Positions 452-22,395 of a DNA stretch of 64,000 nucleotides are shown here, piece by piece. Where the stretch lies: positions 1,488,001 to 1,552,000 of the forward strand of contig NZ_OCNH01000001.1 of NCBI RefSeq assembly GCF_900230225.1. The letters run 5' to 3'. Both the position numbers and the translations under genes were made by a program. This DNA comes from Spirosoma fluviale (GTDB lineage: Bacteria > Bacteroidota > Bacteroidia > Cytophagales > Spirosomataceae). The notes under the pieces were generated by a model. That model worked only from the letters and a program-made list of their open reading frames with translations, was not told the origin of the DNA and searched no databases. Numbering within the stretch: the stretch's first letter is position 1; each line of letters begins with the position of its first letter.

Positions 452-3400
452 CTATTGCTTCGGAGCGGAAATAGCTATGTCCGGTACCGTAACTTTCTCT
501 AACTGCACCTGTCGGCATTGGTTATTGAATCGGGCAATATCGTTCTGAATCAGCAGGTTCATATCCGTTTTTAGTGGTTGCCAGATGGCGTTCAGCTCCG
601 ACAAACGCTCTTTCTGTCCGGCCGTTACGTAGGGTGTATTGACATCCAGTTCGCCTTTCAGAAAGATGTAATCGGCGCTCAGTTTATTCTCGAAATTGAT
701 CACGTCGTCGTTCGACTGCGACTTTGGTTGAATGACTTTTTCTTCCCATAGCTTGATCTTCTTCGCCAGTGCCCGACCTGAATCGGCCACGGCTTTCAGG
801 TTGGGTTTGTCGTCGATGAGGTCGACCAGATCGTTGATTTGCTTCTGGGCTTTACGCATCCGGTTCACGCCAAGGTGAATCTCTTTTACACCGTCTTCAA
901 TGCCGATCAGTGTTTTCTGCTGTTGTTCAAAATCGGCCGGAGTCGTGTTCAGGCGTGGATCGGACAGGATTTTGAACGGCACTGTTTTCTCCTGCTTGCC
1001 AAATCTGATCGTGGCTTTATACCCGCCGGGGGGCAGTTTTCGCCCTTTGTAATTGCCCTCGATAAATACCTTCTCGATGGCGGGTAGTGTTTCGGCGCGC
1101 ATATCCCAGACAAACCGATTCAGGCCCGGCTTCACGGTCAGCGTTGGCTCCGGCGAGGGACCACCGGGAAAGGCCACAAACTTCTTGTCTTTCTTGCTGC
1201 TCAACTTCCGAACGGACGTACCCTGATCGGATAGGATTTCCATCGTCAGCGTAGCGCTGGTATCGACTTTGGCGGGAAGCTGGTAGTAGATCACGACACC
1301 GGTTGATGGGTTGGTACCCGCAAATCCGTTCCGGCCGGGGCTGCTACCCGCGTCTTCATCATCGTCGTCCTCAATCACTTTGTCCAGTGAGCTTCCACCC
1401 GACACGCGGTAGGCATCTTCGGGTTTGTAGACGAGCAAACTGTCTTTGCTGGCTTTCTCGTCAAACTGCCGAATAGGGCCGAGATCGTCCAGAATCCAAA
1501 AAGACCGACCCGCAGTTGCCGCAATCAAATCGCCCTGGTGGACTTTCAGGTCGGTAACCGGACTGACGGGGAGGTTCAGCTGCATGGGCCGCCAGCTGGT
1601 GCCGCCATTGTAGGAAACGTAAACACCGGTTTCCGTTCCAGCATACAGCAGCCCTTTCCGTTCGGGATCTTCGCGAACGGTGCGGGTGAAAGCGCCGTAG
1701 GGGATACCTGTCACGATTTTTGTCCAGGTTTTGCCGTAATCAGTGGTTTTGTAAATAGCCGGGGCGAAATCATTGAATTTGTAGCGGGTGGTGGCAATGT
1801 AGGCAGTTGACTTATCGTGGGGCGATACCTCGATGGAGTTGATGAGCGTTTCGGGCAAACCCGTTGGCGTGACGTTGGTCCAGGTGGTGCCGCCGTCGCG
1901 GGTGAGGTAAACCAGCCCATCGTCGCTGCCCGTCCAGATAACTCCTTTTTCGGAAGGCGATTCGAGTACGTAGGTGATGGTCGCGTAGTTTTCGCCCCCG
2001 GCTCCTTCGTTGGTGTACGGTGCACCGCCCCAGCCCAGTTTGGTAGAATCGCGCCGGGTCAGATCGGGCGAAACGGTCATCCAGCTTTTACCCAGATCGG
2101 TCGTTTTGAAGAGCCGGTTCCCGGCGTGGTAAAACGCCTTCGGTTCGTGCTTCGACCAGATAATGGGCGCATTCCAGTTGAACCGGTATTTCATGGTCTT
2201 GGCCTGCAATGCCTGATACTGAATAGGCGATACCATGATGGGTTTCCCTTCTTTGGTTTGCTGGTCAAGCACCTCAATCGTGCCCTGATAACTGCCGCCC
2301 ATCACATGACGTGGATCGTCGGGGTTGAAGGCGAGGAACGCACTTTCGCCCCCGGCGGATGCCTCCCAGTCTTTATCCGTAATGCCGCTGCCGTTTGTGG
2401 TTCGACTGGCGATCATGACCGAGGTGTTATCCTGCTGACCACCATATACATAATACGGAAAGCGGTTGTCGGCGTTCACGCGGTAGAATTGCGCGGTAGG
2501 CTGGTTGTTCTCCGACGACCACGATTTGCCGCCGTTAAACGAAACGGCACCGCCCCCGTCGTTACTCAAAAACAGGTTTTTGTTATTCTTTGGACTAATC
2601 CATAGGTGGTGATGGTCGCCGTGCGAACCGGAAATTGTCGAAAATGTCTTACCGCCATCAATGGATTTCAGGACGGATGTGTTGAGGATGTATACCGTAT
2701 TTTCATCGATCGGGTCGGCGTAAATTTCAATATAATACCAGGCCCGCTGGATGGTGCGGTGATCTTTGCTCACCCGGTTCCAGCTTTTGCCGGCATCTTC
2801 GGACAGAAAAACGCCCCCTTTGTCGGCCTTAGAATCCGATTCGATGACCGCATACACCCGATTTGGGTTGGCTTTGGAGACCGAAATGCCCATTTTGCCC
2901 AACTCTTTCGGTAGACCTTTTTCGAGTTTGGTCCAGGTTTCGCCCGCGTCGGTCGATTTGTAGAGGCCACTGCCTTTGCCACCGCTTTGCACCTGCCAGG
3001 GCAGGCGTCGGTAATCCCACATGGATGCGTAGAGGATGCGCGGGTTGGTCATGTCCATGCTCAGGTCGTTGCAGCCGGTATTTTCATCCACGAACAGCAC
3101 TTTCTTCCACGACTTGCCGCCGTCGGTGGTTTTGTAGATACCCCGCTCGGGCGAGGAACCGTGCAGCGCACCCTGGGCGGCCACGAACGCCACATCGGGA
3201 TTTTGAGGGTGTACGCGAACGGCGGCAATGTGCCGGGTGAGATCGAGGCCGAGGTGCTGCCAGGTCTTACCCGCGTCGGTCGATTTATAGACGCCATCGC
3301 CGTAGGAGGTCATTACGCCACGGGGCGCGTGCTCGCCCATGCCCACATACACAACGGCCGGGTCGGATTCGCAAATGCCAATTGCCCCAACGGAGGATGT

Positions 3401-3700
3401 TTTGAGTTGCCCATCGGAGACGTTTTTCCAGGTCATACCGGCGTCTTCTGTCTTCCAGATGCCCCCGCCAACGGTGCCCATGTAGTACAGTTGCGGATCG
3501 CTGGTCACGCCCGACCCGGCCACGGAACGACCTCCCCGAAACGGGCCAATGTTCCGCCACTTGACGGGCTTAAAATAGGGGTCGATATTCTCCGCACCAT
3601 CCACACTAGACGCGGAAACGGGTTTGGCAAGCTTCGGCTTTTGGGCCAGTAATGGGCTGATTAATAGGACAGCGTAAAGAACAAGTAGGGTGTTTCGCAT
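452..3700 (-). CDS. Exported VPS10/sortilin-like BNR-repeat propeller protein (paralog 1)
   Basis: A 1082-residue protein with a signal peptide (cleavage near residue 20, LLAQ). Residues about 45-760 carry many Asp-box/BNR repeats of the form S/T-x-D-x-G-x-T/S-W (for example [24 protein letters not shown]), as in VPS10/sortilin and GH74-type double propellers. The conserved block [12 protein letters not shown] is at about 48-59 and an HGDHHHLW motif at 360-367. A short acidic stretch (EDDDDED) precedes a C-terminal Ig-like part ([12 protein letters not shown]) and a helical tail. Such genes are often annotated as glycosyl hydrolase, but no catalytic residues can be assigned, so the enzymatic role is open. 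It lies 66 nt downstream of hmuV on the same strand, suggesting it is the last gene of the heme operon. It probably acts in the periplasm or at the outer surface. Confidence 0.9.
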
Positions 3701-3766
3701 AGGAAGCCGTTTGTTGAATTAACGCTGGCTAAGATAGCGGAAATCAAGGTTAGCCCCGTACTATCA

Positions 3767-4546
3767 TCACCAAATCATAACCCGTCGCCCGGTTTCGGGA
3801 TGCGTGGTAAAGTACGGTCGAATCTTGAACACTGTTTCGATGGCTTCTACGGTGAGTACCTGCTCCGGAATACCCATAGCAAAAATGCGCCCCTGATCCA
3901 TCAGAATGACATTGTCGGCGTAGTGTAAGGCCAGATTGATATCGTGGACAATCACAAACACCACCCTATTTTTTGCGGCCAGATCACGCACCAGACCCAA
4001 AATCTGATGTTGATACTGGATATCCAGTGCCGAAATAGGCTCATCTAAAAATAGATATTTGACGGATTCGTCACCCGGTTGCCGGTATAACTGCGCCAGC
4101 ACCCGCGCCAGATGGATCTTCTGCTTTTCTCCCCCGGAGAGTGACGCAAACGCGCGGGTTTTGAACGAAAGCATACCAACGGATTCCAGACAATGATCGG
4201 CAATCTGTGTATCCTGCGCCGTCGGGTTGAGGTCGAAATACGGGTAGCGCCCCATCATGACAACCTCGTTCACGCTCAGGTCGAAAGGGAGAGACAGGAG
4301 TTGAGACAGCACGGCTTTCTGGCGCGCCTGGGTTGAGAGCGGAATGGAAGGCAGCGGCTGATCGCCGTAATAGATTTGACCCGTTTTTGGGGTTTCGGTG
4401 CCAGTCAGGAGTTTGAGCAAGGTACTTTTCCCGGCTCCGTTTGGCCCCAGCACCATCGTGAACTCGCCGGGTAACAGCGTTAACGAAACGTCGTCGATCA
4501 ATGTCTTTTGACCAATCTGAAACGACAGGTTTTCGGCTTTAAGCAT
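3767..4546 (-). CDS. hmuV: Heme ABC transporter ATPase HmuV
   Basis: A 259-residue ABC ATPase, normal length for the FecE/HmuV family. Walker A is GPNGAGKST (34-42), the ABC signature LSGGE is at 136-140, Walker B YLFLDEP at 164-170 and the switch HD at 201-202. It would power heme import through the inner-membrane permease HmuU. Its start overlaps the last 8 nt of hmuU, implying translational coupling. The hmuT-hmuU-hmuV order and the heme-type motif in HmuT make heme a better guess than siderophore or cobalamin, which use the same FecCD/FecE families. Confidence 0.9.
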   Translation of the reverse strand: MLKAENLSFQIGQKTLIDDVSLTLLPGEFTMVLGPNGAGKSTLLKLLTGTETPKTGQIYYGDQPLPSIPLSTQARQKAVLSQLLSLPFDLSVNEVVMMGRYPYFDLNPTAQDTQIADHCLESVGMLSFKTRAFASLSGGEKQKIHLARVLAQLYRQPGDESVKYLFLDEPISALDIQYQHQILGLVRDLAAKNRVVFVIVHDINLALHYADNVILMDQGRIFAMGIPEQVLTVEAIETVFKIRPYFTTHPETGRRVMIW

Positions 4547-5606
4547 AGAAACCTCCTTTCTGAAACGAGCGGGCGTTGCGAACGAGCAACCAGATAAATA
4601 CCGGAGCCCCTACAAAAGCGGTGATTACGCCAATCGGAAATTCGGCCGGAGCCACCAGCCGCCGGGCAATGGTGTCGGCCAGCGTAAGCAGCGAGCCGCC
4701 CAGCAGGGCCGAGGAGATGACCAGAAACCGGTTGTCGGATGTTTTGAGCAGGCGAAGTAAATGCGGCACTACCAGTCCAACGAACGAAATAACGCCAACC
4801 ATCGCCGTCCCAATAGCCACCAGCAGGGTGTTCAGTAGGAGCACCTGTATTTTGAGTCGGTCGATGTTATAACCCAGATGGCGGACTTCGTCTTCGCCCA
4901 GAATCAGGACATTCAACGCCTTCGTGAACCGCAACGAAAGTAGAATACCCACCGACGTTACGGGAAAAACGATGGCGAACTGTGTCCAGTCGGCACCCGA
5001 AAACGTACCCAGATTCCAGAAAGTGATGGAACGAGCCTGCGGGTCGCGGGCGATGTATGATAGAAAACCCGTGCCGCCGGTAGCCAGCGCGTTGATAGCG
5101 ATACCCGCCAGAACCATCGTCGCCACATTCACTTTACCACTGATCGACGCAATCCGATAGACCAGCAACGTTGCTCCAAAGGCGAAGACAAAGGCAACGC
5201 AGGGCAGTAAAAATAGACCCAGCGCGTCGGTAAAGGCCCAGTTGATGTTCTTGCCCAGCACAAACACCAGGGCCGCGCCCAGAGCCGCCCCCGAACTAGT
5301 GCCTACCAGCCCCGGCTCCACAATCGGGTTTCGAAATAGCGCCTGCATCAACACCCCCGACACCGACAGACCCGCCCCAACCGTAGCGCAAAGCAGCACC
5401 CGAGGTAACCGAATCTGTAAAAAAAGCCCCTGCGAAATTGGGTCAACCGCTGTATCTGACAGGCCGCTACCATTGAGCAGAATCTGGTTGATGTCGGCGA
5501 AGGTTAAATCGACGGCACCGATTCGCAAGGCGGCAATAATGGAGATGACGAGCAGTCCCGCCAGTAATCTGTACCATTGGCCGGGGGAAAGAGAGGGTGG
5601 TTTCAT
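4539..5606 (-). CDS. hmuU: Heme ABC transporter permease HmuU (FecCD family)
   Basis: A 355-residue FecCD/BtuC-type permease with about ten hydrophobic segments. Family hallmarks seen are RLPRVLLCATVGAGLSVSGVL, GTSSGAALGAAL and the C-terminal GVISFVGLVVPHLLR. The ATG at 5606 (MKPPSLSPG) is preferred over the in-frame ATG at 5654, because the longer form would run into the 21-bp inverted repeat at 5643-5689 and adds no family sequence. It sits between hmuT and hmuV, overlaps hmuV by 8 nt, and forms the channel for heme across the inner membrane. Confidence 0.9.
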   Translation of the reverse strand: MKPPSLSPGQWYRLLAGLLVISIIAALRIGAVDLTFADINQILLNGSGLSDTAVDPISQGLFLQIRLPRVLLCATVGAGLSVSGVLMQALFRNPIVEPGLVGTSSGAALGAALVFVLGKNINWAFTDALGLFLLPCVAFVFAFGATLLVYRIASISGKVNVATMVLAGIAINALATGGTGFLSYIARDPQARSITFWNLGTFSGADWTQFAIVFPVTSVGILLSLRFTKALNVLILGEDEVRHLGYNIDRLKIQVLLLNTLLVAIGTAMVGVISFVGLVVPHLLRLLKTSDNRFLVISSALLGGSLLTLADTIARRLVAPAEFPIGVITAFVGAPVFIWLLVRNARSFQKGGFYA

Positions 5607-5642
5607 GGGGATAGGAAAGAGATGAAGGAGTGTAGAGGCCTC

Positions 5643-5689
5643 TACTACCCCCAACCCCCTCCTGTTTTAGGAGGGGGTTGGGGGTAGTA
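5643..5689. repeat. Long GC-rich inverted repeat between hmuT and hmuU
   Basis: Arms 5643-5663 and 5669-5689 are perfectly complementary over 21 bp, with a 5-nt loop. The arms are runs of C and A (or G and T). The repeat lies inside the heme operon, between the hmuT stop and the hmuU start, so it would fold in the mRNA. It has no T-run after it on the minus strand, so it is not a classical terminator. It may be an RNA stability or processing hairpin. Confidence 0.9.
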
Positions 5690-5695
5690 AGACGA

Positions 5696-6565: not shown

Positions 6566-6612
6566 GGATTTTTCTGGTAATATAAGTTGGTGTTGTATGG
6601 GCTGATGACGTA

Positions 6613-6735
6613 ATGGCGCAAGGCTCTGGCCTTGTGTTTACTATTCTCTGGCCTCTGGCCGGGTTTAAATAATAGTAGCAATAGACCCGGCCAGAGGCCG
6701 GAGAATAATAGACACAAGGCAGAGCCTTGCGCCAT
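6613..6735. repeat. Imperfect ~51-nt-arm inverted repeat between TonB receptor and hmuT
   Basis: Left arm 6613-6664 and right arm 6685-6735 are complementary with a few mismatches and one single-base indel; the loop is about 20 nt. Shorter self-complementary words (CTCTGGCC, GGCCAGAG) also occur inside each arm. It fills the gap from just downstream of the receptor stop to the hmuT leader and could act as a partial transcription barrier that lowers hmuTUV expression relative to the receptor. Confidence 0.88.
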
Positions 6736-6744
6736 CGCATCGTC

Positions 6745-9087
6745 CTAAAACGTGTATTTCAACATAGCACCCGAATAGAACGTGATTTTTGGGGCGGGGT
6801 TGAAGAATAATGGGCGGTTGTTTGCCGGGTTGGGCAGGTTCAGGAAGATGAGCGACGAGTAGGTGCTGCTCAGCATATTATCCGAGCCCACATATACATC
6901 CAGACTGAAATGGCTCCCCAGCGCAGACCGGTATCCGACTTTGCCATTAACGAGCGTATACGCTTTGGCAAAATGATCGTTGGCCAGTGTAATGGGCATT
7001 TTGTCGACGTACATCAACGTTCCATTTAGGTAGAAGCCCGGACGTACTTCCAGATCGAAACCGGCGTTCAGCAGGTTGGGTGCAATGCCGGATTCTTTCT
7101 TGCCGGTATAGTTGATCGTTTTCGCGTTGCCGTTATTGTCGCTCTTGTAGTCTTTGTAATAGAAATCACTGTAAGTGTACGACACGAACGGACGGAACAG
7201 CGAGATGGCTCCGGTCGTTGGACGAAAAGCATACTGAACTGCCAGTTCCAGACCGTTATGCTGCACGTTGCCCGCGTTGGAGGTCAGGGTGTAGGCGGGT
7301 GAGGTGGGCGTAGCCGGGAAGTTCTGCGGGATAAGCTTGTCCGTTACGGCCATGCTGAAATACGCAATTTCATAGGTCAGGGCTTTCGTTAGCAGACTCC
7401 CTTTGCTGCCGATCTCGTAGCTGGTGCCTGTTTCCGGACGGAGGTTGTAATTGACCACGCCCGTCTGGGCGATGACGACCTGATTGGTGGCCGGTGCCGA
7501 ATAGCCCTGGCTGACACTTGCGTAGAACGATACATTGTCCGTCGCCTGATAGGAAACTGCCGCACGCGGTGTCAATACCGGCTCAAACCGTTTGTAGCCC
7601 GACGCGTTGACATAGGCGGGCGTGGTTGTACTGGCGCGCATGTCGGTAATGCCGTACTCGACGTAGTTCAGGCCCGCCCCTGCCGATACCGTCAGTCGGG
7701 GAGCCAGTTGCAGGGCGGCCTGGGCGAACACGTTGTATTGCATGGCCTGTATTTCGAGGTCAGAGCGAAGTGCCCCCAGAATCCCGTTCGACAGGCCGTA
7801 CCCTTTGGCGTAGTTGAAGTTCTTTAGGAATTCGGCACCGATGCTAAACGTTGGCTTCAGCGCGCTGGCATCGTTCATATACGTGAACATCGTGCGGCCC
7901 CCAAACTTGAATTTGTTGGTCTTATTAACCCCGGCAGCAAACGGCTGGTCGATAATCTGCCCACCCACAAACACGGTTGTCTTGTTCGAGAAGCGATCCG
8001 TAAACTGGTAGTTATGACTGATACCCGCCCGCGCACTTTCCGTTTTGATACTGGCATTGTTGGCCAGGTAGGCCACTTCGGCGGTATCGGGGTGGGCAAT
8101 CAGGTTCAGGCTGTCGACTTGCCCCGACAGCAGATCATACGAATTCGTGTAGCCGACAAAGACCGACATCGACCGTTTCTGACTCAGGTAGGTATCACTG
8201 GTAATATTCAGGAAATCTTTCTTCGAGGTGCCGTGCAGCCGGAATCCGTCATACTTCTGATGGCCGTAGTTGATGTTCAGGCTGGTATTGTCGGAGCCGG
8301 TTTTGATGGACGTGTTCGTGCGAAAGAGACCATACGAACCCGCCAGTACCTGCTGACTAACGCTCGTTTTGCCGATGGGCGCGCGTTCGGTATAGAAATT
8401 CACAACCCCACCCAGCGAATTGCCGTACGAACTGGACGCCGGACCTTTGATGATTTCAACGCGGCTAAGGTTCGTGAAATCCACATCGTCCAGAAAAGTC
8501 GTGCCATCACCGTCTGTTAGCGGAATGTCGTTCAGGTACGCCTTGTAGCCGACACCATTGAAGTTCGTCTGGTTGCCGTATCCCCGAATCACAATCCGGT
8601 TGCCCGCTGCCACCGTGCGCATCTCTACTTTGACGCCCGGAATCAGGTTCACAAAGTTTTGCAGGTGGATGCCGCTGGTCCGCTGAATGTCGCGGCTGGT
8701 GACGAGCCCAACCGCACCGGCCGTTCGCTGAATCGTCTGGGGTGTTGAATAGCCGGATACGATGACTTCGTTGAGGTCGATGTTCGACGATTCCAGTTCG
8801 ATGGTCAACGAACGGGTTGTGGCTTTGATTTTGACCGTTTGGGGCTGGTAGCCAATGGCCGACACTTGTAGTTGATCGCCTTCGCTGGCACTCAGTTCAA
8901 ATTGCCCTTTGTCGTTGGCTGTCGTACCGCGCGATGTGCCGGTGATCAACAGTGAAGCGCCCGCGATGGGTTGCGAATTTGTGGGATCGACTACCCGGCC
9001 GGTTATGGTTGTTTGGGCGTAAAGGTGTGTCCCTGAGAGCGTAGAAAAGATGAGTAAAATACTAGAAACTATATATGTGAATTTCAT
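6745..9087 (-). CDS. TonB-dependent outer-membrane receptor, heme-operon member
   Basis: A 780-residue receptor. A signal peptide ends near LYAQ (residue 25), then comes a carboxypeptidase-regulatory-like domain (ITGRVVDPTNSQPIAGASL, about 26-110), a plug domain (VSGYSTPQTIQRTAGAVG to the GPASSSYGNSLGGVVNF motif, about 115-225) and a 22-strand-type barrel ending in an aromatic residue (LKYTF). It imports a ligand across the outer membrane with TonB-ExbBD energy. Since hmuTUV follows on the same strand, the ligand is probably heme or a heme-iron complex. The plug lacks the hemoglobin-receptor signature seen in the receptor at 16663, so a siderophore ligand cannot be excluded. Confidence 0.9.
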   Translation of the reverse strand: MKFTYIVSSILLIFSTLSGTHLYAQTTITGRVVDPTNSQPIAGASLLITGTSRGTTANDKGQFELSASEGDQLQVSAIGYQPQTVKIKATTRSLTIELESSNIDLNEVIVSGYSTPQTIQRTAGAVGLVTSRDIQRTSGIHLQNFVNLIPGVKVEMRTVAAGNRIVIRGYGNQTNFNGVGYKAYLNDIPLTDGDGTTFLDDVDFTNLSRVEIIKGPASSSYGNSLGGVVNFYTERAPIGKTSVSQQVLAGSYGLFRTNTSIKTGSDNTSLNINYGHQKYDGFRLHGTSKKDFLNITSDTYLSQKRSMSVFVGYTNSYDLLSGQVDSLNLIAHPDTAEVAYLANNASIKTESARAGISHNYQFTDRFSNKTTVFVGGQIIDQPFAAGVNKTNKFKFGGRTMFTYMNDASALKPTFSIGAEFLKNFNYAKGYGLSNGILGALRSDLEIQAMQYNVFAQAALQLAPRLTVSAGAGLNYVEYGITDMRASTTTPAYVNASGYKRFEPVLTPRAAVSYQATDNVSFYASVSQGYSAPATNQVVIAQTGVVNYNLRPETGTSYEIGSKGSLLTKALTYEIAYFSMAVTDKLIPQNFPATPTSPAYTLTSNAGNVQHNGLELAVQYAFRPTTGAISLFRPFVSYTYSDFYYKDYKSDNNGNAKTINYTGKKESGIAPNLLNAGFDLEVRPGFYLNGTLMYVDKMPITLANDHFAKAYTLVNGKVGYRSALGSHFSLDVYVGSDNMLSSTYSSLIFLNLPNPANNRPLFFNPAPKITFYSGAMLKYTF

Positions 9088-9119
9088 GATGTTTTTGAGT
9101 TAAGGCATAAAAATCCTGT

Positions 9120-9202
9120 CAGTTAATGGTATCAGGAAGGTATTTCAAACGCTATATCTCCAAGATATGGCGTTTGAAATACCTTCCTGATACCATTAAC
9201 TG
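9120..9202. repeat. 40-bp-arm inverted repeat upstream of the TonB receptor
   Basis: Arms 9120-9159 and 9163-9202 match in 39 of 40 positions with a 3-nt loop. It sits between the end of the 179-residue protein gene and the receptor start. Confidence 0.92.
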
Positions 9203-9243
9203 GTCTACTGGTTGAAAAACCAGGTGGGAAAAGAAACAGGAGT

Positions 9244-9783: not shown

Positions 9784-9817
9784 GTGTTTTAATTAAGGTG
9801 AATTATGACTGGGTTTT

Positions 9818-13094: not shown

Positions 13095-13156
13095 AGTTTG
13101 GGAGATGAGGTTGTATGAGGGGTTGAGGGTTTTGGTGCGAGGTGGCGAGGGCTAAG

Positions 13157-13258: not shown

Positions 13259-13262
13259 TTTG

Positions 13263-16200
13263 CTACATCCCAATACGTTGAACCGTTTTCGTTTTCAGCA
13301 GCGTGTCCAGTTCGGCCAGTTGTTTGTTCAGGTCGCCGGTGAGTTCTTCGTAGACTTTGTAGGAGCCGTTGGTAGGTTTGGCATCGCCGGATTCGATGCT
13401 GCGCCAGAGAGCCGCCAGCCGGTTGTTGAGCTTGATCGGGAAGTTCAGCGGGTCTTGTCCGCTTTGGTTACGAATCTGATACAGGTTCTCTTCAATGATG
13501 CTCAACTGCTCTTTCAGCTTTTTATTGGCCGGACTGTCTGGCTGTTTGGCCAGTTTTTCCTTCACCGCCCGAATCTGAACGACCGCGTCATTGGCCTTGC
13601 TCGTTTCATCCCGAATCTTCATCGCCATCTTGAATTGCTCCTGTACATCGGCCGTGGTCACGCCTTTCAGCCGGGGATCGAGTTTGATCTCGAAAGGCTG
13701 CGTAAACGTTTGGTCACCCACGGTTAATCGTACCTGATACTGGCCGGGCAACGCCAACGGACCGGAGGTCGGACGAGCGCCCCACATGATCATGCCTTTG
13801 AAATACGTAGCACCGGGGTAGCGTAAATCCCATTCGTAGCGATTCAGACCGGCCGCTGTGGTTGGGAGCTTAACCTGCGGTTTGCCTGCTTCCTCGTCGT
13901 CCTCATCGACTTTCGGATAGGTTGGTTTATTTCCCGTAAACGACTGGATAAGTGTTCCGGCGGCATCAAGAATTTCGATTTTCACGCTATCCGCTTTCTT
14001 CGCCAGATAGTACTGAAAAACGGCTGGCTGTACCCGGCGAACGGCGTAGTAGGGCTTGAACAGGTGAACGGCTTTTTTGCCCAAATCGGACGTGAACTCA
14101 CGAACGGGCGCTACATCGTCCAGCACATACATTGAGCGGCCGTGCGTACCGATCACCACATCTTTCTCCGTCACCTGAATGTCCGAAATCTGGGTGTCGG
14201 GTAGTTTGAGTTGCAGGGGCTGCCAGTTTTCGCCGTCGTTGAACGATACCCAAACGCCGTGCTCCATACCCGCGTAGAGCAGGCCAGGGCGGGTGATGTC
14301 TTCCCGGATGGCATGAGCGTAATCGTCGGTGCGTAGACCGCTGATGATCTTTTTCCAGGTCTTTCCGTAATCATCCGTTTTCCACAGATAGGGTGTGCGG
14401 TCGTCCATCTGGTAGCGTTTGGCGGCTACATAAGCCGTGCCCGGTTTGTGCCGCGACGCTTCGATAATGCTCACTCGGGTGTGTTTGGGCATATCTGGGG
14501 GAGTGATTTTCTGCCAGCTTTTGCCGTGGTCGCGGGTAATGTGAATCAGGCCATCGTCCGAGCCCGCCCAGATCGTGTTGACATTATGATAGGAGGGGGC
14601 CAGTGCGAAAACGGTCGCGTAAATCTCCGGGCCGTTCATGTCCATGGTAATAACGCCCCCGGTTTTGCCCAGCGTTGCCGTGTCGGCCAGGGTCAGGTCC
14701 GGGCTGATTTTATCCCAGCTCTGGCCTTCGTTGGTCGATACCCACACGTGCTGCGAACAAACATAAAGCCGGTTCGGGTCTTTGGGCGAGAAGACAATCG
14801 GGTAAGTCCACTGCCAGCGTTCGGGCAGGGCGCTGGCGGGTTCGCCGGAGAAGAAACGCGGATAAACCTGCACATCGCGGGTTTGGCCGGTCGTTCGGTC
14901 GTAGCGGGTGAGTAACGCGCCCTGACTGCCCGCGTAAAAGATGTTCGGGTTCTTCGGGTCCTGCGCAATGTAGCCCGACTCGCCACCGCCAACTTCGTAA
15001 GTCCATTCGCTCTTCTTAAGAGAATTACCTCGGGCTAACTGATTGGTCCAGCCTTCGCTGGCTACGGCTACCGTCGAGTTGTCCTGCTGGGCACCGGCAA
15101 CGTGATAGGGAAAATCGTTGGTGGCGGTAATATGGTAGAGTTGAGCCGTGGGGAAGTTTTCATCCGTCCAGGATTTTCCGCCGTTGACCGACACGGCTGC
15201 ACCGCCGTCGTTCGACGTAATCATGCGAGTCGAATCGGCCGGGTCAATCCATAAGTCGTGGTTATCGCCGTGGGGTACCTTCAACGACTTATTGAACTTC
15301 ACGCCCCCATCCGACGATTTGAAGAAATCGACGTTGAGGCAGTAAACGCCGTTTTTGTCGAGGGGATCGGCATAGATTCGGGAATAGTAGAAGGCCCGCT
15401 GACGAAGCTTCCGTTCGTCGTTGACGTGTTTCCAGGTCATGCCGGCATCATCCGAGCGGTACACGCCCCCGTCTTCGGCCTCCACTATGGCCCACACCCG
15501 ATTTGGATCGACGGGCGAAACGGTCACGCCAATTTTGCCGACCGTCCCTTTTGGCATCCCCGGTTTGCGGGTCAGTTCGGTCCAGGTTTCACCCCCGTCG
15601 GTCGATTTGAACAGGCCGGAGTCGCCCCCGCCACCCCACATCTTCCAGGGTTTGCGATACACTTGCCAGATCGAGGCATAGAGGACGTTCGGGTTGGTGC
15701 GGTCGATGATCAGGTCGACACCCCCGGCTTTGTCGCTTTTGTAGAGGACTTTCTTCCAGCTTTTGCCGCCATCGGTAGTTCGGAAAATACCTCGTTCTTC
15801 GTTGGGGCCGTAGGGATGTCCCAACGCGGCTACGTAAACTATATCGGGGTTGGTGGGGTGAATACGGACGCGGGCAATGGCCTGGGTATTTTTCAGCCCA
15901 ATATTGGTCCAGGTCTTCCCGGCGTTGATGGATTTATAGACGCCATCGCCCTGCATGATATTGCCCCGGAGCTGGGTCTCGCCCGTTCCGATATACACAA
16001 CATCAGGATTTGATTCGGCTACGGCCACAGCACCGACGGATGAACTGGTCAACTGACCATCCGTAACGGGCGACCAACTTTGGCCGCCATCCGTTGTTTT
16101 CCACAAGCCTCCGCCAACGGCTCCGAAATAATATTCCTGTTTACGGCTCGGCGACCCGGCCGACCCCAGTGACCGGCCGCCACGGGTTGGGCCAATATTA

Positions 16201-16328
16201 CGCCAGGCCATACCTTTAAATACGGGGTTGATGACGGTGTCGGGCTGTGTGGTTTGCTGGGCCCAACTGCTTGTGTTCAGGAGGAGGCTGAAAGCAATTG
16301 CCATCCGATATACGATAAGATGTTTCAT
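13263..16328 (-). CDS. Exported VPS10/sortilin-like BNR-repeat propeller protein (paralog 3)
   Basis: A 1021-residue protein with a signal peptide ending near SSWAQ (residue 24). It has the WRNIGPTRGGRS block, Asp boxes ([32 protein letters not shown]), PHGDNHDLW, AGAQQDNS and GGGESGY, an acidic linker (DEDDEE), and a C-terminal Ig-like and helical region as in the paralogs. It is the first gene of the minus-strand iron/heme series. The 334-nt gap upstream is shared with the divergent TonB receptor at 16663, so this spacer probably holds promoters for both series. Confidence 0.9.
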   Translation of the reverse strand: MKHLIVYRMAIAFSLLLNTSSWAQQTTQPDTVINPVFKGMAWRNIGPTRGGRSLGSAGSPSRKQEYYFGAVGGGLWKTTDGGQSWSPVTDGQLTSSSVGAVAVAESNPDVVYIGTGETQLRGNIMQGDGVYKSINAGKTWTNIGLKNTQAIARVRIHPTNPDIVYVAALGHPYGPNEERGIFRTTDGGKSWKKVLYKSDKAGGVDLIIDRTNPNVLYASIWQVYRKPWKMWGGGGDSGLFKSTDGGETWTELTRKPGMPKGTVGKIGVTVSPVDPNRVWAIVEAEDGGVYRSDDAGMTWKHVNDERKLRQRAFYYSRIYADPLDKNGVYCLNVDFFKSSDGGVKFNKSLKVPHGDNHDLWIDPADSTRMITSNDGGAAVSVNGGKSWTDENFPTAQLYHITATNDFPYHVAGAQQDNSTVAVASEGWTNQLARGNSLKKSEWTYEVGGGESGYIAQDPKNPNIFYAGSQGALLTRYDRTTGQTRDVQVYPRFFSGEPASALPERWQWTYPIVFSPKDPNRLYVCSQHVWVSTNEGQSWDKISPDLTLADTATLGKTGGVITMDMNGPEIYATVFALAPSYHNVNTIWAGSDDGLIHITRDHGKSWQKITPPDMPKHTRVSIIEASRHKPGTAYVAAKRYQMDDRTPYLWKTDDYGKTWKKIISGLRTDDYAHAIREDITRPGLLYAGMEHGVWVSFNDGENWQPLQLKLPDTQISDIQVTEKDVVIGTHGRSMYVLDDVAPVREFTSDLGKKAVHLFKPYYAVRRVQPAVFQYYLAKKADSVKIEILDAAGTLIQSFTGNKPTYPKVDEDDEEAGKPQVKLPTTAAGLNRYEWDLRYPGATYFKGMIMWGARPTSGPLALPGQYQVRLTVGDQTFTQPFEIKLDPRLKGVTTADVQEQFKMAMKIRDETSKANDAVVQIRAVKEKLAKQPDSPANKKLKEQLSIIEENLYQIRNQSGQDPLNFPIKLNNRLAALWRSIESGDAKPTNGSYKVYEELTGDLNKQLAELDTLLKTKTVQRIGM

Positions 16329-16662
16329 AGATGCAGGGTAAATAGGAAGATAAGGGGATTCATTGGTGTATTGAGAAGAGAGCGCTTGTCACTGAATAGA
16401 CGAAGAATTTGTCAGTAGGTTTACCACGGACAAACTTAGGAAAGTCCAATCCTAATTCACATAATCAGTACTAAGAAATATATTTTGAATTATTGGAAGA
16501 GTGCGTTATTTTAATCAGGGTAAGTTTAATTCAACCAATTATTTTTCTTAGCTATTTCGTTGAGAGCCAAATAATCAATAATTGAATGAGTTGTTTTCTG
16601 ATGAGATTAGGTATAGTCTCTTTAGCTTTACGGCATTAAAAAGTATTAATGTAGTAAAGCGT
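16329..16662. promoter_or_regulatory. Divergent promoter region between the two iron/heme gene series
   Basis: An AT-rich 334-nt gap between oppositely oriented genes. On the minus strand TAAGTTTG (16431-16438) matches the Bacteroidota -7 consensus TAnnTTTG exactly and would give a leader of about 100 nt for the propeller gene; no TTG is found at the ideal -33 distance. On the plus strand the TATTTTG near 16480 is a near match. I do not see a convincing Fur-type palindrome, so iron control is not shown by the sequence. Confidence 0.5.
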
Positions 16663-19077
16663 ATGAAACGGCTTCTTTATTTACCCTTTTGTTTATTGCC
16701 TATTTTGACATTTGCTCAAACCTTGTTGGTTCGGGATAAAACGACTCTTCAAGCCATCGAAAATGTAGAAGTCAGCGGGGGGGCTACTGAGTCACCCCGG
16801 CCTGTTTTTACGAACCGTTCGGGCCAGGTCGATGCGTCGAGGTTAGGCAGTGGCGGCAACGTTAGCTTCCGTCGGGTGGGTTACCAGACCGTTCAGTATT
16901 CAATGGAGCAGCTTCGGGCAATTAATTACAACGTGCTGCTAGCCGAAAAGCAGCTGGATCTGAATGAAGTTGTCGTTGCGGCTAATCGTACTGCCGAGCC
17001 GATCTCGCGGGTGGCCCAGCCCATTCGCGTCTTTACCCGAAACGAACTGCGTTTCCTGAACCAGCCGACCATGGCCGAGGTGTTGCAGCAAAGTGGGCAG
17101 GTGATGGTTCAAAAGAGCCAGCTCGGGGGAGGAAGCCCCATTCTTCGTGGTTTTGAGGCCAATAAAGTGTTGATGGTAGTCGATGGGGTTCGGATGAACA
17201 ACGCCATCTTTCGGGGCGGGCACCTGCAAAACATTCTGACCATCGACAATGCCGCTGTCGAACGGCTGGAAGTTGCCTTAGGGCCGGGTTCGGTGGTGTA
17301 TGGCAGCGATGCGCTGGGGGGCGTTATCTACGTACAAACACTGTCGCCGAAGGTAGGTGCTTCGGGAAATACAGCTATCAATGCCAATGGCTTTGTTCGC
17401 TACGGCAGTGCCATGAATGAAAAAACAGCTCATGCCGACTGGAACATAGGGTTTCGCAAATGGGCGTTTACAACGAGTGTTACCGGTTCGGACTTTGGCG
17501 ATCTTCGGCAGGGGAAGCAACGCAACGCCGATATGGGGCAGCTGGGTTTACGCCCATTCTACGCAGGTTTTGAGAACAATACCGATGTGAAGATCACCAA
17601 TCCTGACCCGTTGGTTCAGGTTGCATCGGGCTATAAACAGGTCGATCTGTTGCAAAAAGTGCTGTTTCAGCCGACCGACCGTACGCAGCACTTGCTCAAT
17701 GTTCAGTTCTCGACCAGCAGCGATATTCCACGATACGACCGACTTACCGAAGTCGATGCGAAGGGGAATCCAAGCCACGCTCAATGGTATTATGGCCCAC
17801 AAAAGCGTCTTTTAACGGCTTATGGCCTGACCAAACAGTTTAGCTCAGGTGTGGCCGATGAACTCAAACTCATTGCAGCCTACCAGTCGATTGAAGAGAG
17901 CCGACATAACCGACGCTTCGGAAATTATGGCTTGCAGCATCGAACGGAAAATGTGAACGTCTGGACGCTGAATGCCGATTTGAAAAAGAAAGTGGCTGAA
18001 TCGCATATGCTGCGCTACGGGTTCGAAGGGACCTACAATACCGTTCAGTCGACGGCGTACCGGCAACATGTACAAACCGGGAAAATTGACCCGCTGGACA
18101 CCCGCTACCCCGATGGAGGAGCCAATACCCAGTCATTGGCGGGTTATGTGTCGGGAACGCTGGATGTAAGCAGTCGCTCCACGCTCACCTACGGAGCCCG
18201 TTATGCGTACAATCGACTATACGCCAAATTCAACGATAAGACATTCTTTCCCTTTCCGTTCAATGACATCACCCAGCAGTCGGGTGCCGTTACGGGTAGC
18301 CTGGGCTGGGTAACGCGCCTGCCGGGCGACTGGCAACTGGCCACGTCGATTGCATCGGGGTATCGGGTGCCGAATGTCGATGATCTCGCGAAAGTGTTTG
18401 AGTCGGTGGCTGGGAATCTCATCGTCCCGAATCCGAATCTGAAACCGGAACGCACGTACACCTTCGATGCGGGCGTTCGGAAGCAGATTGCCGAGCGGGT
18501 GTCGCTCGAACTCGAAGGCTTTTACACAATCTACAACAATGCCATCAACACCCAGCCGGGCACGTTGAACGGACAATCGCAGATTGACTACAACGGACGC
18601 ACCAGCCGCATCGTTACACAGGTGAACTCGCAACGGGCGCGGTTATTTGGATTCAATGCGCAGGTTTCTGCCGATCTGACACAATCGCTTACTTTGTTTG
18701 GTACCGTTACCTACACCAAAGGCCGTATCCGGACCGATTCAACAGCCTACCCACTCGACCACATTCCACCGCTTTACGGCAAAGGCGGCCTCCGCCTGAC
18801 GATCAAGCAGTTTCGGGCTGAGGCCAATGTGTTGTTCAATGGCTGGAAACGCCTGAGTGAATACAATCTGGTTGGAGAGGACAACATCGTTTATGCCACA
18901 TCGCAGGGTATGCCTGCCTGGCAAACGATCAACCTGCGGACCAGCTATCAGCTTAATCGGTTCGTGCAGGTGCAGGCGTCTCTGGAAAATTTGCTGGATC
19001 GCAACTACCGGGTTTTTGCGTCGGGCATCAGTGCGCCGGGCCGAAATCTGGTTCTCACCCTGCGAGGGACCTTATAA
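16663..19077 (+). CDS. TonB-dependent hemoglobin/heme-type outer-membrane receptor
   Basis: An 804-residue receptor. The start at 16663 (MKRLLYLPFCLLPILTFAQ) gives a good signal peptide; the upstream in-frame ATG at 16582 would bury it. After a short regulatory-like domain (about 20-100) comes a plug with GGGSPILRGFEANKVLM, VVDGVRMNNAIFRGGHLQN and PGSVVYGSDALGGV, the signature of the hemoglobin/transferrin/lactoferrin receptor family (HmuR/HemR). The barrel includes NPNLKPERTYTFDAG and ends in a beta strand. It would extract heme from host or environmental hemoproteins or bind heme directly. It is followed by a propeller paralog and a PepSY membrane protein on the same strand. Confidence 0.9.
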   Translation: MKRLLYLPFCLLPILTFAQTLLVRDKTTLQAIENVEVSGGATESPRPVFTNRSGQVDASRLGSGGNVSFRRVGYQTVQYSMEQLRAINYNVLLAEKQLDLNEVVVAANRTAEPISRVAQPIRVFTRNELRFLNQPTMAEVLQQSGQVMVQKSQLGGGSPILRGFEANKVLMVVDGVRMNNAIFRGGHLQNILTIDNAAVERLEVALGPGSVVYGSDALGGVIYVQTLSPKVGASGNTAINANGFVRYGSAMNEKTAHADWNIGFRKWAFTTSVTGSDFGDLRQGKQRNADMGQLGLRPFYAGFENNTDVKITNPDPLVQVASGYKQVDLLQKVLFQPTDRTQHLLNVQFSTSSDIPRYDRLTEVDAKGNPSHAQWYYGPQKRLLTAYGLTKQFSSGVADELKLIAAYQSIEESRHNRRFGNYGLQHRTENVNVWTLNADLKKKVAESHMLRYGFEGTYNTVQSTAYRQHVQTGKIDPLDTRYPDGGANTQSLAGYVSGTLDVSSRSTLTYGARYAYNRLYAKFNDKTFFPFPFNDITQQSGAVTGSLGWVTRLPGDWQLATSIASGYRVPNVDDLAKVFESVAGNLIVPNPNLKPERTYTFDAGVRKQIAERVSLELEGFYTIYNNAINTQPGTLNGQSQIDYNGRTSRIVTQVNSQRARLFGFNAQVSADLTQSLTLFGTVTYTKGRIRTDSTAYPLDHIPPLYGKGGLRLTIKQFRAEANVLFNGWKRLSEYNLVGEDNIVYATSQGMPAWQTINLRTSYQLNRFVQVQASLENLLDRNYRVFASGISAPGRNLVLTLRGTL

Positions 19078-19158
19078 ATGAGAGTGTGCAACCGATTTAA
19101 TGCCTTTTCTCCGTTTCCTTGTATTATTTTGCAACATCCCAAACTAACCAAATTTTTC

Positions 19159-22100
19159 ATGGTAAATAGGAAATTTACTAACTGTATAATTGCCCTCGTA
19201 GTAATAGGCTTACAAAGCAATCTCACCTTTGCCCAGCGGAAAAGTAAACCAGTCCCTAAGTCAACGGCCGTCCAATCGACCGATAGCCTGATCAATGGCC
19301 TGCGCTGGCGCAATATTGGCCCCTTTCGGGGTGGGCGGTCGCTGGCCGCTGCCGGGCATTCGAGCCAGCCGCTAACCTATTATTTCGGGGCCACGGGTGG
19401 TGGCGTCTGGAAAACGATCGACGGCGGTGCCAACTGGTTCATGATCTCGGACAGCACCTTCAAATCCAGTTCAGTCGGCGCGGTTGCCGTGGCTCCTTCC
19501 GACCCGAACACGATTTATGTAGGGATGGGCGAAGCCGATATTCGAAGTAATATTGCCAATGGCGACGGGGTCTATAAATCGACAGACGCCGGAAAAACCT
19601 GGAAACACATTGGCCTAAAAATGGCCGATGCGGTCGCCAGCATTGAAATTCACCCGACCAATCCCGATGTGGCGTATGTGGCCGCTTTAGGAAACCCCTT
19701 TGCTCCCAACAAGGAGCGGGGCCTGTTTCGAACCACCGATGGCGGCAAAACCTGGAAACCCATTCTGACAAAAAATGATAGCACGGGAGCCATCGTCGTA
19801 AAACTCGACCCGAACAACCCGTCTATCGTCTACGCGTCGATGTGGCAGGCCTACCGGAACAGCTACACGATGAGCAGTGGCGGTCCCGGTTGTGGGTTGT
19901 TCAAATCGACCGACGGTGGCGATACCTGGACGAACCTGAGTACCAAACCCGGTATGCCAAAAGGCTTGCTGGGAAAAATCGGGATAACCGTTTCGCCTGC
20001 CAACTCGAACCGGCTCTATGCCATGGTCGAGAATGCAAAAGGTGGTTTATACCGCTCGGACGATGCCGGGGAGTCGTGGCAGTTGATCAATGAAGACAAA
20101 AACCTCTGGCAACGCCCGTGGTATTACATGATGCTGGCCGCCGATCCGCAGGATGAGAACGGCCTGATCGTGCTGAACGTGAACGCCCTGAAATCCTACG
20201 ACGGCGGTAAATCATTTTCGACCATTGGCGTACACCATGGCGATACACACGACATCTGGTGGAACCCCAAAAATCCACAGAACTTTATCATTGCCGATGA
20301 TGGCGGTGCCGAGATCACCTATAACGGGGGCGCAACCTTTTCTGATGTCGACATTCCAACCTCGCAGTTTTACCACGTAGCCGTCGACAACGATTTTCCG
20401 TATAACCTCTACGGCGCTCAGCAGGATAATTCCTCCATTCGAATCGCCAGCCGCACGACCGAGTATTCCATTGGCAAGTCGGCCTGGTATCCGGTATCGG
20501 GTGGCGAGTCGGGTTACATAACTCCCGACCCGAACAATCCGAACGTGACCTACGGCGGTAGCTACGATGGCCTGATTACCCGCTACGATAAAGCGACAGA
20601 CCAGAATCAGGTCATCAACGTGTATCCCGAATATTTCATGGGCGCGCCATCGTCGGCGCGGAAATACCGTTTTCAGTGGACGTATCCCATCGTCTTCTCG
20701 CCCCACGACAGCAAAACGCTGTACATCACCTCGCAATACCTGCACCGCAGTACCGACAATGGCCACTCCTGGCAGGACATCAGCCCCGACCTGACCCGCA
20801 ACGACCCCAAAACCCAGGGCGATACGGGCGGCCCGATCACCAAAGACAATACTGGTGCCGAAACTTTCCCCACGATCTTCACCTTCGCCGAATCGCCGGT
20901 TGAAAAGAATATCTTCTGGGCTGGTTCCGACGATGGACTGATGCACATCAGCCGCGATGGCGGCAAAAACTGGCAGAACATCACCCCGTCCCCATCCATG
21001 TTGCCCGAAATGGCCATTATGAGCATGGTTCACCCATCTGATCACACGGCGGGCAAAGCGTATCTGGCGGCCAAGCGGTACATGTCCGGCGACCGTAAGC
21101 CCTACCTGTTTAAAACGACGGATTACGGCAAAACCTGGACGAGCATATCGGCGGGTATCCCCTCGGATGAGCATTGCCACGTGGTACGCGAGGACCCAAA
21201 TAAACCCGGACTGTTGTACGCCGGAACCGAGCGCGGAGTGTATGTTTCGTTTAACGATGGCGGTTCGTGGGAGAAGTTAAGTATGAATTTACCGGTTACT
21301 CCCGTTCGCGATTTGCAGATTCAGAAGCGCGAGAAAGATTTGGTCATTGCGACCCACGGTCTGGCATTCTGGATCATGGACGACATTAGCCCGCTGCATG
21401 AACTGATGGATGTGAAACAGGGCGGTAAATCGGTGGCGCAGATGCATTTGTTCAAGCCCCGTCATGCCTACCGCATGGAAGGCGGTGCCGGTAATTCTCG
21501 CCGTGGTCGGGCTGCTCCGTCGGACGAAGGCGAAAATGCCCAGAATGGTGTCATTACGCGTTATTATCTCAAAAGCAAGCCGACGAAAGAACTGCGGCTG
21601 ATTTACATGACGACGAACGGCGATACCATCAGTTCGTACTCCAGCACGAAGGACAAAAAAGGACAGCCGCTCAAGATAGCGAAGGAGTTTTATCAGGACG
21701 AAACCGTCCAACGACCCGGCTCAATACCCGCCAGTCCGGGTATGAATGTGTTCGTTTGGGACATGCGTTATCCCGATGCCACCGCCGTTGACGGCATCAA
21801 CGTAATGTGGACGGGGCGTGGAACGGGAGCGAAAGTCATTCCCGGCATGTACAAAGTTCGGATGTTGCTGGGCGATTCGCTGATCTCAGAGCAGCCCATT
21901 GAAATCCGGAAAAACCCCCGTTTAGCGATCACCGCTGCCGAATACCAGGAGCAGTTTGACCTTTTGCAGAAGATCAACGGAAAGCTGTCCGAAACGCATA
22001 AAGCCATCAACCAGCTTCGCCTGATCAGAACCCAGATCAACGGCTATACGAATGGTGTGAAAGACCCGAAAATTGCCGAGAAGTTCAAAAACGCGGCCAA

Positions 22101-22395
22101 GCCCATCGTTGAGGAGTTGGATAAAATTGAATCGACCCTGATGCAGCCGAAGTCGAAAGCACCGCAGGACGCTCTGGCGTATCCGATTCGTCTGAACGAC
22201 AAAATTGCCGGTGTAGCTTCGGTTGTTTCCTCGGCCGATACCAAGCCAACCAAATCATCGTACACCGCGTATGATGACCTCTCGAAACAGATTGATACTG
22301 CGCTGACGAAGCTGAAAGAAGTTATCAACACGCAGGTGCCGAGCTTCAATAAAATGGTAACCGAGCAGCAGGTGCCCGCAATTATTTTGAATTAA
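19159..22395 (+). CDS. Exported VPS10/sortilin-like BNR-repeat propeller protein (paralog 4)
   Basis: A 1078-residue protein. The ATG at 19159 (MVNRKFTNCIIALVVIG) starts the signal peptide, which is cleaved near TFAQ; an in-frame ATG at 19078 directly abuts the receptor stop codon but adds a non-signal leader, so it is not preferred. It carries [12 protein letters not shown], Asp boxes ([32 protein letters not shown]), VHHGDTHDIW, YGAQQDNS and SGGESGYI, then a basic insert (SRRGRAA), an Ig-like part and a long helical tail with repeated Lys/Ile/Leu heptads. It is tightly linked to the heme-type receptor, in the same transcription unit. Its function is not known. Confidence 0.9.
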   Translation: MVNRKFTNCIIALVVIGLQSNLTFAQRKSKPVPKSTAVQSTDSLINGLRWRNIGPFRGGRSLAAAGHSSQPLTYYFGATGGGVWKTIDGGANWFMISDSTFKSSSVGAVAVAPSDPNTIYVGMGEADIRSNIANGDGVYKSTDAGKTWKHIGLKMADAVASIEIHPTNPDVAYVAALGNPFAPNKERGLFRTTDGGKTWKPILTKNDSTGAIVVKLDPNNPSIVYASMWQAYRNSYTMSSGGPGCGLFKSTDGGDTWTNLSTKPGMPKGLLGKIGITVSPANSNRLYAMVENAKGGLYRSDDAGESWQLINEDKNLWQRPWYYMMLAADPQDENGLIVLNVNALKSYDGGKSFSTIGVHHGDTHDIWWNPKNPQNFIIADDGGAEITYNGGATFSDVDIPTSQFYHVAVDNDFPYNLYGAQQDNSSIRIASRTTEYSIGKSAWYPVSGGESGYITPDPNNPNVTYGGSYDGLITRYDKATDQNQVINVYPEYFMGAPSSARKYRFQWTYPIVFSPHDSKTLYITSQYLHRSTDNGHSWQDISPDLTRNDPKTQGDTGGPITKDNTGAETFPTIFTFAESPVEKNIFWAGSDDGLMHISRDGGKNWQNITPSPSMLPEMAIMSMVHPSDHTAGKAYLAAKRYMSGDRKPYLFKTTDYGKTWTSISAGIPSDEHCHVVREDPNKPGLLYAGTERGVYVSFNDGGSWEKLSMNLPVTPVRDLQIQKREKDLVIATHGLAFWIMDDISPLHELMDVKQGGKSVAQMHLFKPRHAYRMEGGAGNSRRGRAAPSDEGENAQNGVITRYYLKSKPTKELRLIYMTTNGDTISSYSSTKDKKGQPLKIAKEFYQDETVQRPGSIPASPGMNVFVWDMRYPDATAVDGINVMWTGRGTGAKVIPGMYKVRMLLGDSLISEQPIEIRKNPRLAITAAEYQEQFDLLQKINGKLSETHKAINQLRLIRTQINGYTNGVKDPKIAEKFKNAAKPIVEELDKIESTLMQPKSKAPQDALAYPIRLNDKIAGVASVVSSADTKPTKSSYTAYDDLSKQIDTALTKLKEVINTQVPSFNKMVTEQQVPAIILN

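Follow-up and report, generated by a model that had tools for sequence, protein, structure and literature searches.

Large Asp-box propellers kept together with heme-type importer genes at differing chromosomal positions in Spirosoma

Why do several large exported propeller proteins lie among genes that resemble a heme uptake system? The question is raised by a stretch of 64,000 nucleotides from Spirosoma fluviale (contig NZ_OCNH01000001.1, positions 1,488,001 to 1,552,000; hereafter the window), in which four Asp-box propeller genes (P1 to P4) accompany a heme-type ATP-binding cassette (ABC) importer (HmuTUV), two TonB-dependent receptors (TBDT1 and TBDT2) and a PepSY protein. An earlier sequence-only reading had described four exported propellers of about 1020-1080 residues interleaved with these genes, and open reading frames (ORFs) together with profile searches confirm that arrangement. 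The genes form two divergent runs, P3-P2-U179-TBDT1-HmuTUV-P1 on the minus strand and TBDT2-P4-PepSY on the plus strand, as follows (lengths in amino acids, aa).

452-3700, minus strand: P1, exported Asp-box propeller, 1082 aa; ends the heme importer unit, 67-nt gap to HmuV
3767-4546, minus strand: HmuV, predicted heme ABC ATPase; NF010068, 286 bits, cut-off 261
4539-5654, minus strand: HmuU, FecCD-type permease; PF01032, 295 bits
5696-6565, minus strand: HmuT, heme-type periplasmic binding lipoprotein; closest among solved structures to heme-binding proteins
6745-9087, minus strand: TBDT1, TonB-dependent receptor; PqqU/YncD-like by nearest solved relative
9244-9783, minus strand: U179, small protein of 179 aa adjoining TBDT1; N-terminal hydrophobic stretch
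9903-13094, minus strand: P2, exported Asp-box propeller, 1063 aa; ORF and Pfam profile
13263-16328, minus strand: P3, exported Asp-box propeller, 1021 aa; ORF and Pfam profile
16660-19077, plus strand: TBDT2, heme/hemoglobin-type TonB-dependent receptor; PhuR nearest solved relative, TIGR01785 below cut-off
19159-22395 (ORF from 19078), plus strand: P4, exported Asp-box propeller, middle gene of TBDT2-P4-PepSY; start from signal peptide
22456-23511, plus strand: PepSY_TM inner-membrane protein, putative ferric reductase; PF03929, 174 bits

Judged from its signal peptide, P4 probably begins at the Met at about 19159. U179 has no match in a Pfam scan. A PF15902 search and a propeller-alignment search agree on five large propellers in the whole 7.8-Mb genome, four of them in the window; the fifth lies on another contig, where its neighbours, judged from translations, resemble gltX and acyl-CoA carboxylase genes. 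Elsewhere the genome codes for four smaller proteins with PF15902 matches, all under the cut-off.

The cassette recurs across the genus

We surveyed 59 genomes, 36 of them from the genus (S. fluviale, G000, included), and matched propellers in 27, with up to a dozen matches per genome. Within the genus, propellers occur in 15 of the 36 genomes, an ortholog of the island permease HmuU in 14 and both in 13. Propellers are present in 13 of the 14 genomes with the HmuU ortholog and absent from 20 of the 22 without it (Fisher p=5.8e-7, kinship not corrected for). P3 occurs in the genus only in genomes carrying the HmuU ortholog (13/14 with it, 0/22 without; Fisher p=6.1e-9, again with kinship not corrected for), and G019 is the sole HmuU genome that lacks P3. 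In the 13 other genus members the HmuU ortholog is 86-94% identical to that of the window.

The 13 propeller-bearing islands have a common order, P1-HmuVUT-TBDT1-U179-P2-P3 divergent from TBDT2-P4-PepSY, with strand kept and gaps mostly short; between islands, identity is 75-98% for the propellers and 67-94% for PepSY. A fifth propeller type of about 999 aa (P5) follows the PepSY run in 8 of the 13, P2 is present in 8 and missing from 5, and a TBDT2 ortholog lies in 7 (own included), the order TBDT2-P4-PepSY being found in G000 and those 6 relatives. The P1 ortholog directly follows HmuV in G011, G024, G026 and G035 and is in pieces in G016; it is displaced in four genomes, lying 2.8-5.4 kb away in G013 and G008 and having a different contig from the island in G025 and G028, and no P1 ortholog was found in G001, G018 and G031. 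U179 is called beside TBDT1 in 11 of the 13 islands, as well as in propeller-less G019, and is uncalled in G008 and G026; its identity is 50-78% in pairs above the 50% cut-off and lower in others. Cassette parts are spread over several contigs in G025, and PepSY-side genes are rearranged in G031. These gene calls in relatives are six-frame ORFs chosen by length, so genes can be missed, and HmuT is uncalled in G008 and G025. The propeller genes of G016 are broken into several frames; since the folD match of that genome is likewise truncated, assembly indels are a likelier cause than gene decay.

Flanking genes show where the islands sit. At 50% identity and 70% length within the fetched flanks, such genes are shared only among G000, G026 and G035, between G008 and G013 (genes between HmuV and P1) and between G025 and G028, and the remaining six propeller-bearing islands share none, a pattern that gives at least nine contexts for the 13 islands. 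The gene folD lies 2.1 kb from PepSY in G000; in G001, G008, G011, G018 and G024 the distance between folD and the island is 0.76-3.6 Mb. In 11 of 12 genomes read, folD adjoins a gene for a protein of 983-988 aa (in some of them a short ORF or as much as 1.8 kb intervenes); these five are among the 11, with 983-985 aa, and the twelfth genome belongs to another genus. Because folD still stands beside its usual neighbour in those five genomes, the same site exists there without the cassette. The cassette is kept as a unit at differing chromosomal positions within the genus, and the link of the propellers with heme uptake genes, proposed from one genome, extends to 13 genomes of the genus in which the same genes lie together at many positions.

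A second HmuU type, about 45-48% identical, occurs in 16 of the 22 genus members without the island type, and is missing from 8 of the 14 that have the island type, a distribution that looks as though an older importer can give way to the island. In the genome of the window, the single HmuU-type match at E<=1e-30 is the island copy.

A heme-type importer and two different receptors

Is the importer one for heme? HmuV passes the heme cut-off of its NCBIfam profile, and the first seven solved relatives of HmuT (E 1.6e-44 to 2.7e-23) leave BtuF far behind at about 1e-12. Five of the seven were named heme- or hemin-binding by their depositors; the other two, called just 'periplasmic binding protein', we take to be RhuT and PhuT. 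A GYxRxLxAEG stretch, the Tyr of which is a heme ligand in relatives, is present in 10 of the 12 HmuT orthologs scanned. By these sequence relations, HmuTUV is an importer of the heme type.

The receptors differ from one another. The nearest solved relative of TBDT2 is PhuR (1.2e-25), followed by BtuB at about 3e-15, and its best-scoring family, TIGR01785, gives 209.5 bits, under the curated cut-off of 316.85. TBDT1 is nearest to PqqU/YncD among solved proteins, rather than to heme receptors. Both had been read as heme receptors; the relation to PhuR upholds a heme-type assignment for TBDT2, though under the family cut-off, and the proximity of TBDT1 to PqqU/YncD means that giving both receptors that name overreaches.

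The predicted propeller fold resembles GH74 rather than sortilin

P1 to P4 have in common the motif WRNIGP(F/T)RGGRS, and P2, P3, P4 and the fifth genomic copy are each 41-43% identical to P1. All four exceed the Sortilin-Vps10 cut-off of 33 bits (PF15902; P1 116, P2 109, P3 128, P4 121), the best stretch in each spanning only about 110-130 of 446 profile positions. They score 123-149 bits against NF045728 (F510_1955 glycosylhydrolase), under the curated 175, and a GH74 profile matches at E 8e-24. The family is found in many Bacteroidota, and the matches listed include records titled Acidobacteria, Gemmatimonadetes, Pirellulaceae, KSB1 and others. According to PMC9936825, a Flavobacterium protein carries a Sortilin-Vps10 label together with a PA_subtilisin domain.

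To place the fold, we built an AlphaFold2 model of P4 alone (1083-residue form, 48 homologs; predicted local distance difference test, pLDDT, 89; predicted template modelling score, pTM, 0.87). Its strand-rich segment at about 803-923 is compatible with the immunoglobulin-like domain that the sequence-only reading had placed near the C terminus of the propellers, and long helices (931-1074) follow, in line with the helical tail also proposed. In Foldseek searches with the model, the first 25 matches are all GH74 enzymes (E down to 6e-25), aligned over 806-877 columns with template modelling (TM) scores of 0.31-0.42 by query and 0.40-0.59 by target. Two-component sensor propellers, WD40 proteins and, at rank 37, PorZ come after them, and no sortilin is among the best 50 matches listed. 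The moderate TM-scores point to an architecture related to GH74 and no close copy of it. On this model the fold of P4 is predicted to be GH74-like rather than sortilin-like; a sortilin-like receptor is rejected, and the proposed parallel with ligand binding by sortilin is not supported. As treated in PMC2716378, GH74 (7+7 blades) and sortilin-type VPS10 (10 blades) are separate organisational types of Asp-box propellers, and more Asp-box families are anticipated.

The resemblance to GH74 raises the question of catalysis. The Asp of the ARADIGGAYR stretch, one of the GH74 catalytic residues, is present in 2cn2 and is Ala in the 2cn3 sequence, and in the 2cn3 alignment that Ala pairs with the Thr of the family's GATGGGVW. 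At this site P1 to P4 read GTVGGG, GTTGGG, GAVGGG and GATGGG, that is, Thr or Val. With one known catalytic Asp replaced, an active GH74 glycosidase is unlikely. Labels such as glycosyl hydrolase or VPS10 are unsupported for this family by the evidence here.

Enzymes of some other kind are the main rival to a binding function. The propellers, while not GH74 glycosidases, could be exported enzymes that cleave or strip a ligand, heme-bearing or peptide, either ahead of its uptake or afterwards; the conserved HGDxH, QQD and Arg residues would then make up the active site. In an alignment of P4 with 48 homologs (29-50% identity to it), R56, R65, H365, D367, D386, Y410, Q427 and D428, among others, are invariant in all 49 sequences, and these polar residues could form such a site. 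The surroundings of related propellers elsewhere also favour this rival: in G010 they stand beside SusC-type, SusD-like and PD40-amidohydrolase genes (with genes of similar size in G007 and G031), and in G043 one adjoins a protein of the prolyl-oligopeptidase family. Set against it are the missing GH74 Asp, the lack of any match in P1 to P4 to catalytic families beyond Asp-box labels (Pfam, NCBIfam), and the rarity of suitable neighbours among the sampled loci described below, with S9-type proteins at 5/80 named and 0/80 order-level loci and PD40-amidohydrolase-like proteins at 3 and 2 against 1/20 controls. We regard an enzymatic role as unlikely.

The arrangement seen in G010 (loci L112:4064-19000 and L113:1-6145, also L108 and L128) joins a TBDT2-like receptor and a P4-type propeller to the SusC-type and SusD-like genes, a second propeller and the PD40-amidohydrolase, and resembles a nutrient-use locus. 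G007 and G031 hold genes of similar size to these SusC, SusD and amidohydrolase neighbours.

A possible role in heme acquisition

What, then, might the propellers do in the cassette? As described in PMC13142918, adjoining genes of the XusABC system encode a TonB receptor, a propeller lipoprotein with seven blades and a PepSY protein; the propeller binds the iron ligand and hands it to the receptor. TBDT2-P4-PepSY repeats the Xus order, which makes a ligand-holding partner the most economical role for P4 and, by extension, for the others. From this order, the genus survey, the conserved layout in differing contexts and the heme-type relatives of TBDT2 and HmuT, we tentatively favour, at somewhat less than an even chance, a reading of the region as a heme/iron acquisition cassette in which the propellers would be exported partners that hold or present ligands to the receptors, in the way that XusB serves XusA and BtuG serves BtuB. 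Their ligand would be heme-like or a carrier of heme; a TonB receptor would take the ligand across the outer membrane, HmuTUV would carry heme inward and PepSY would reduce the iron. We infer co-transcription, the ligand, the mechanism of handover and the location of the propellers, in the periplasm or outside. Their shared company with heme genes at many positions suggests that widespread propellers can work in iron capture.

We sampled propeller loci outside the genus in two sets, an order-level set of 80 picked from the matches listed and a named set from public genomes comprising the best 80 of at least 542 relatives; G043:C6, G045 and G046 were viewed separately, outside the sample. ORFs were called at each locus and searched with models built from the island proteins, and 20 control loci consisted of 12 folD regions and 8 arbitrary positions. 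The HmuT model matched at 1/80 order-level loci (32 bits, at a contig edge) and 0/80 named loci, and PepSY at 0/80 and 1/80 (23 bits). Receptors, SusC-type included, lie at 7/80 order-level and 5/80 named loci, and generic ABC ATPases found with the HmuV model at 6/80, 8/80 and 2/20 controls; HmuU, HmuT, receptors and PepSY are at 0/20 control loci. More than one propeller occurs at 1/80 order-level and 22/80 named loci. A TBDT2-like receptor precedes a distant-clade propeller by about 70 nt in G046 and lies 3.8 kb from one in G045; a TBDT2 homolog is present in 14 order-level genomes, of which these are two.

Several observations weigh against a heme role. HmuU is at 0/80 order-level and 0/80 named loci in the fetched flanks, TBDT1- or TBDT2-like receptors are near only 4/80 and 3/80, mostly with weak scores, and six TBDT2 homologs read outside the order (of 53 in the phylum sample) have no propeller within 7-10 kb. 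Inside the genus, G019 holds HmuTUV-TBDT1-U179 without propellers, G007 and G010 hold P2 and P4 types without the HmuU ortholog, and the TBDT2 ortholog is absent from 6 of the 13 islands, so that P4 and PepSY often stand without TBDT2. The invariant residues, HGDxH for example, are also found in propellers without heme context, which favours a core activity of a general kind. Unlike XusB, P1 to P4 show no lipobox Cys behind their signal peptides, as read from the sequences. Lastly, in a tree of 219 propellers (FastTree, midpoint root), P2, P3 and P4 are sister lineages in a single clade (29 tips, support 0.976).

Two expectations of the sequence-only reading are affected. Enrichment beside heme genes had been set beforehand as its test, and such enrichment is found inside the genus and not outside, where 0/160 loci carry HmuU. 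A general heme link of the propeller family is thereby rejected: heme linkage is a property of the cassette, not of the propeller family. Display at the cell surface is likewise not borne out. P1 to P4 have neither the lipobox nor, at E<=0.001 in Pfam and NCBIfam, a match to secretion-tail or type IX secretion system (T9SS) C-terminal sorting families, and for these reasons the propellers may be periplasmic.

The same 0/160 count, together with the occurrence of P1, P2 and P4 orthologs apart from heme genes, is what one would see if the propellers were general envelope proteins riding in a heme-gene cassette as passengers, with no part in heme uptake. This we consider improbable, as the cassette combines three or more propeller lineages (P1, P2-P4 together, and P5), P3 tracks HmuU (13/14 versus 0/22) and gene order survives in at least 9 contexts. 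Ancestry supplies those lineages. P1 and P5 stand apart from P2-P4: the sequences grouping with P1 include those of Persicitalea and Pontibacter, and P5 makes up a separate clade. The P2-P4 clade has 23 tips from the genus and six from outside, one with P2, two with P3 and three with P4; outside relatives for each of the three indicate that the copies are older than the genus and form no recent tandem array. These relatives and the separate clades of P1 and P5 lead us to reject the idea that the cluster arose by recent tandem duplication, and because P2-P4 form one clade, an old in-place duplication giving P2, P3 and P4 is possible. The nearest named relative of P1 among the matches listed, at 87%, is in Fibrivirga algicola, where Hmu genes were not found within 10 kb of the propeller locus.

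A further rival would make the propellers cofactor chaperones that hold tetrapyrrole-loaded proteins during maturation, like Ycf48 and HCF136, which are Asp-box proteins of photosystem II assembly. Profile similarity of the propellers to HCF136 and Ycf48 is weak (E 1.5e-5 and 3.4e-4), and PSII_BNR is above cut-off in P1 and P4 and below it in P3; Asp-box proteins in general show such similarity. The propeller block contains a gene for ferrochelatase (PF00762) and/or UPF0093, which we take to be HemJ-type, at 11/80 named loci, mostly in Flavobacteriaceae (L034, L037, L057, L058, L067, L090, L098, L100, L103, L104 and L105). Ferrochelatase is at only 1/80 order-level loci, and at 1/20 controls. 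In the phylum sample of 218 genomes, with at most three propeller candidates scored per genome, a distance of 3 kb or less between ferrochelatase and a scored propeller is seen in just two genomes, G265 and G281, which belong to the same family; six genomes of that family have ferrochelatase and a propeller, and in G277 the two are 31 kb apart. As a propeller link the ferrochelatase/UPF0093 neighbourhood is weak, and we think a chaperone role very unlikely. The same blocks also hold histidine kinase and enoyl-CoA hydratase genes, largely on one strand.

Going beyond the ligand-holding reading of this cassette, the large Asp-box propeller family might be a new class of exported ligand-handling proteins. 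In this genus, a heme-piracy cassette that shifts its position would have taken in several members that diverged long ago, and these would supply paired TonB receptors by binding, or taking apart, chelates or proteins that carry heme. Such a scheme would resemble Xus, with an unrelated propeller in place of XusB. We put this forward as possible, if rather doubtful.

Palindromes and hairpins around the cassette

The DNA of the region has features of its own. A dispersed palindrome lies at window positions 9120-9202 and at 14 other places in the genome (L261 and L263-L275). Its core of 25 nt, of the type ACGCCATATC-NNNNN-GATATGGCGT with up to 2 mismatches, occurs at 15 places, and a reversed-pattern control gave 0. 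The 20 nucleotides flanking the core on one side are complementary to those on the other at 19 positions or more in 13 of the 15 copies, and arms of different copies are unrelated (mean identity 31%, maximum 70%), so each copy has a private inverted repeat. This looks as though adjacent DNA had been copied backwards. The gap between U179 and TBDT1 that contains the palindrome (9088-9243) folds at z -15.

Long hairpins lie at 6604-6744, 9818-9896, 13154-13261, 23509-23598, 32141-32231, 49703-49795 and 63221-63341, between called genes or just behind one, with arms mostly of 29-55 nt and energies of about -64 to -110 kcal/mol. The cassette has one per gap at TBDT1|HmuT, U179|TBDT1, P2|U179 and P3|P2, plus one directly behind PepSY. 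In the divergent promoter region a CAAACTTAGG stretch recurs, by eye, in part of the genomes. A gene for a Fur-family regulator (PF01475) is at window positions 58490-59074, 35 kb off the cassette.

Comparison with known systems

How does the cassette compare with systems already described? Among open-licence PMC papers we found none on these propellers in heme uptake. The importer is like HmuTUV/BhuTUV in that all three subunits have the expected families and nearest solved relatives, transport being predicted; unlike them, it lies among propellers and adjoins a PqqU/YncD-like receptor. Sortilin/VPS10 proteins have in common with P1 to P4 the Asp-box repeats and a PF15902 score above cut-off, and differ in being 10-bladed with a 10CC domain and a membrane anchor; P1 to P4 have no Sortilin_C match in the Pfam scan, and Foldseek prefers GH74. 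To GH74 xyloglucanases the propellers are linked by the predicted P4 fold and the profile match, and they are set apart by Thr or Val in place of Asp, extra C-terminal parts and moderate TM-scores. BtuG is the substrate-binding partner of BtuB, and vitamin B12 uptake by that pair is similar in joining a receptor to a substrate-binding partner protein and different in its substrate.

A parallel in layout is the XusABC system of Bacteroides, which takes up xenosiderophores (PMC13142918). There, too, a Bacteroidota system is associated with iron acquisition, and the order TBDT-propeller-PepSY at 16660-23511 corresponds to XusA-XusB-XusC. The partner propellers are unrelated: XusB is a seven-bladed DUF4374 lipoprotein with a surface export signal, whereas P4 lacks a lipobox, none of P1 to P4 matches DUF4374 at E<=0.001 (Pfam), and P4 has 1083 residues that, in the model, make up a GH74-like propeller, a strand-rich segment and a helical tail. 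The cassette described here further includes a heme ABC importer and can have as many as five propellers. By tying the propellers to a defined pathway, it offers a concrete handle on their ligand, and if they do handle heme ligands, the principle of pairing a propeller with a TonB receptor in iron and vitamin piracy would reach a different and much larger protein family.

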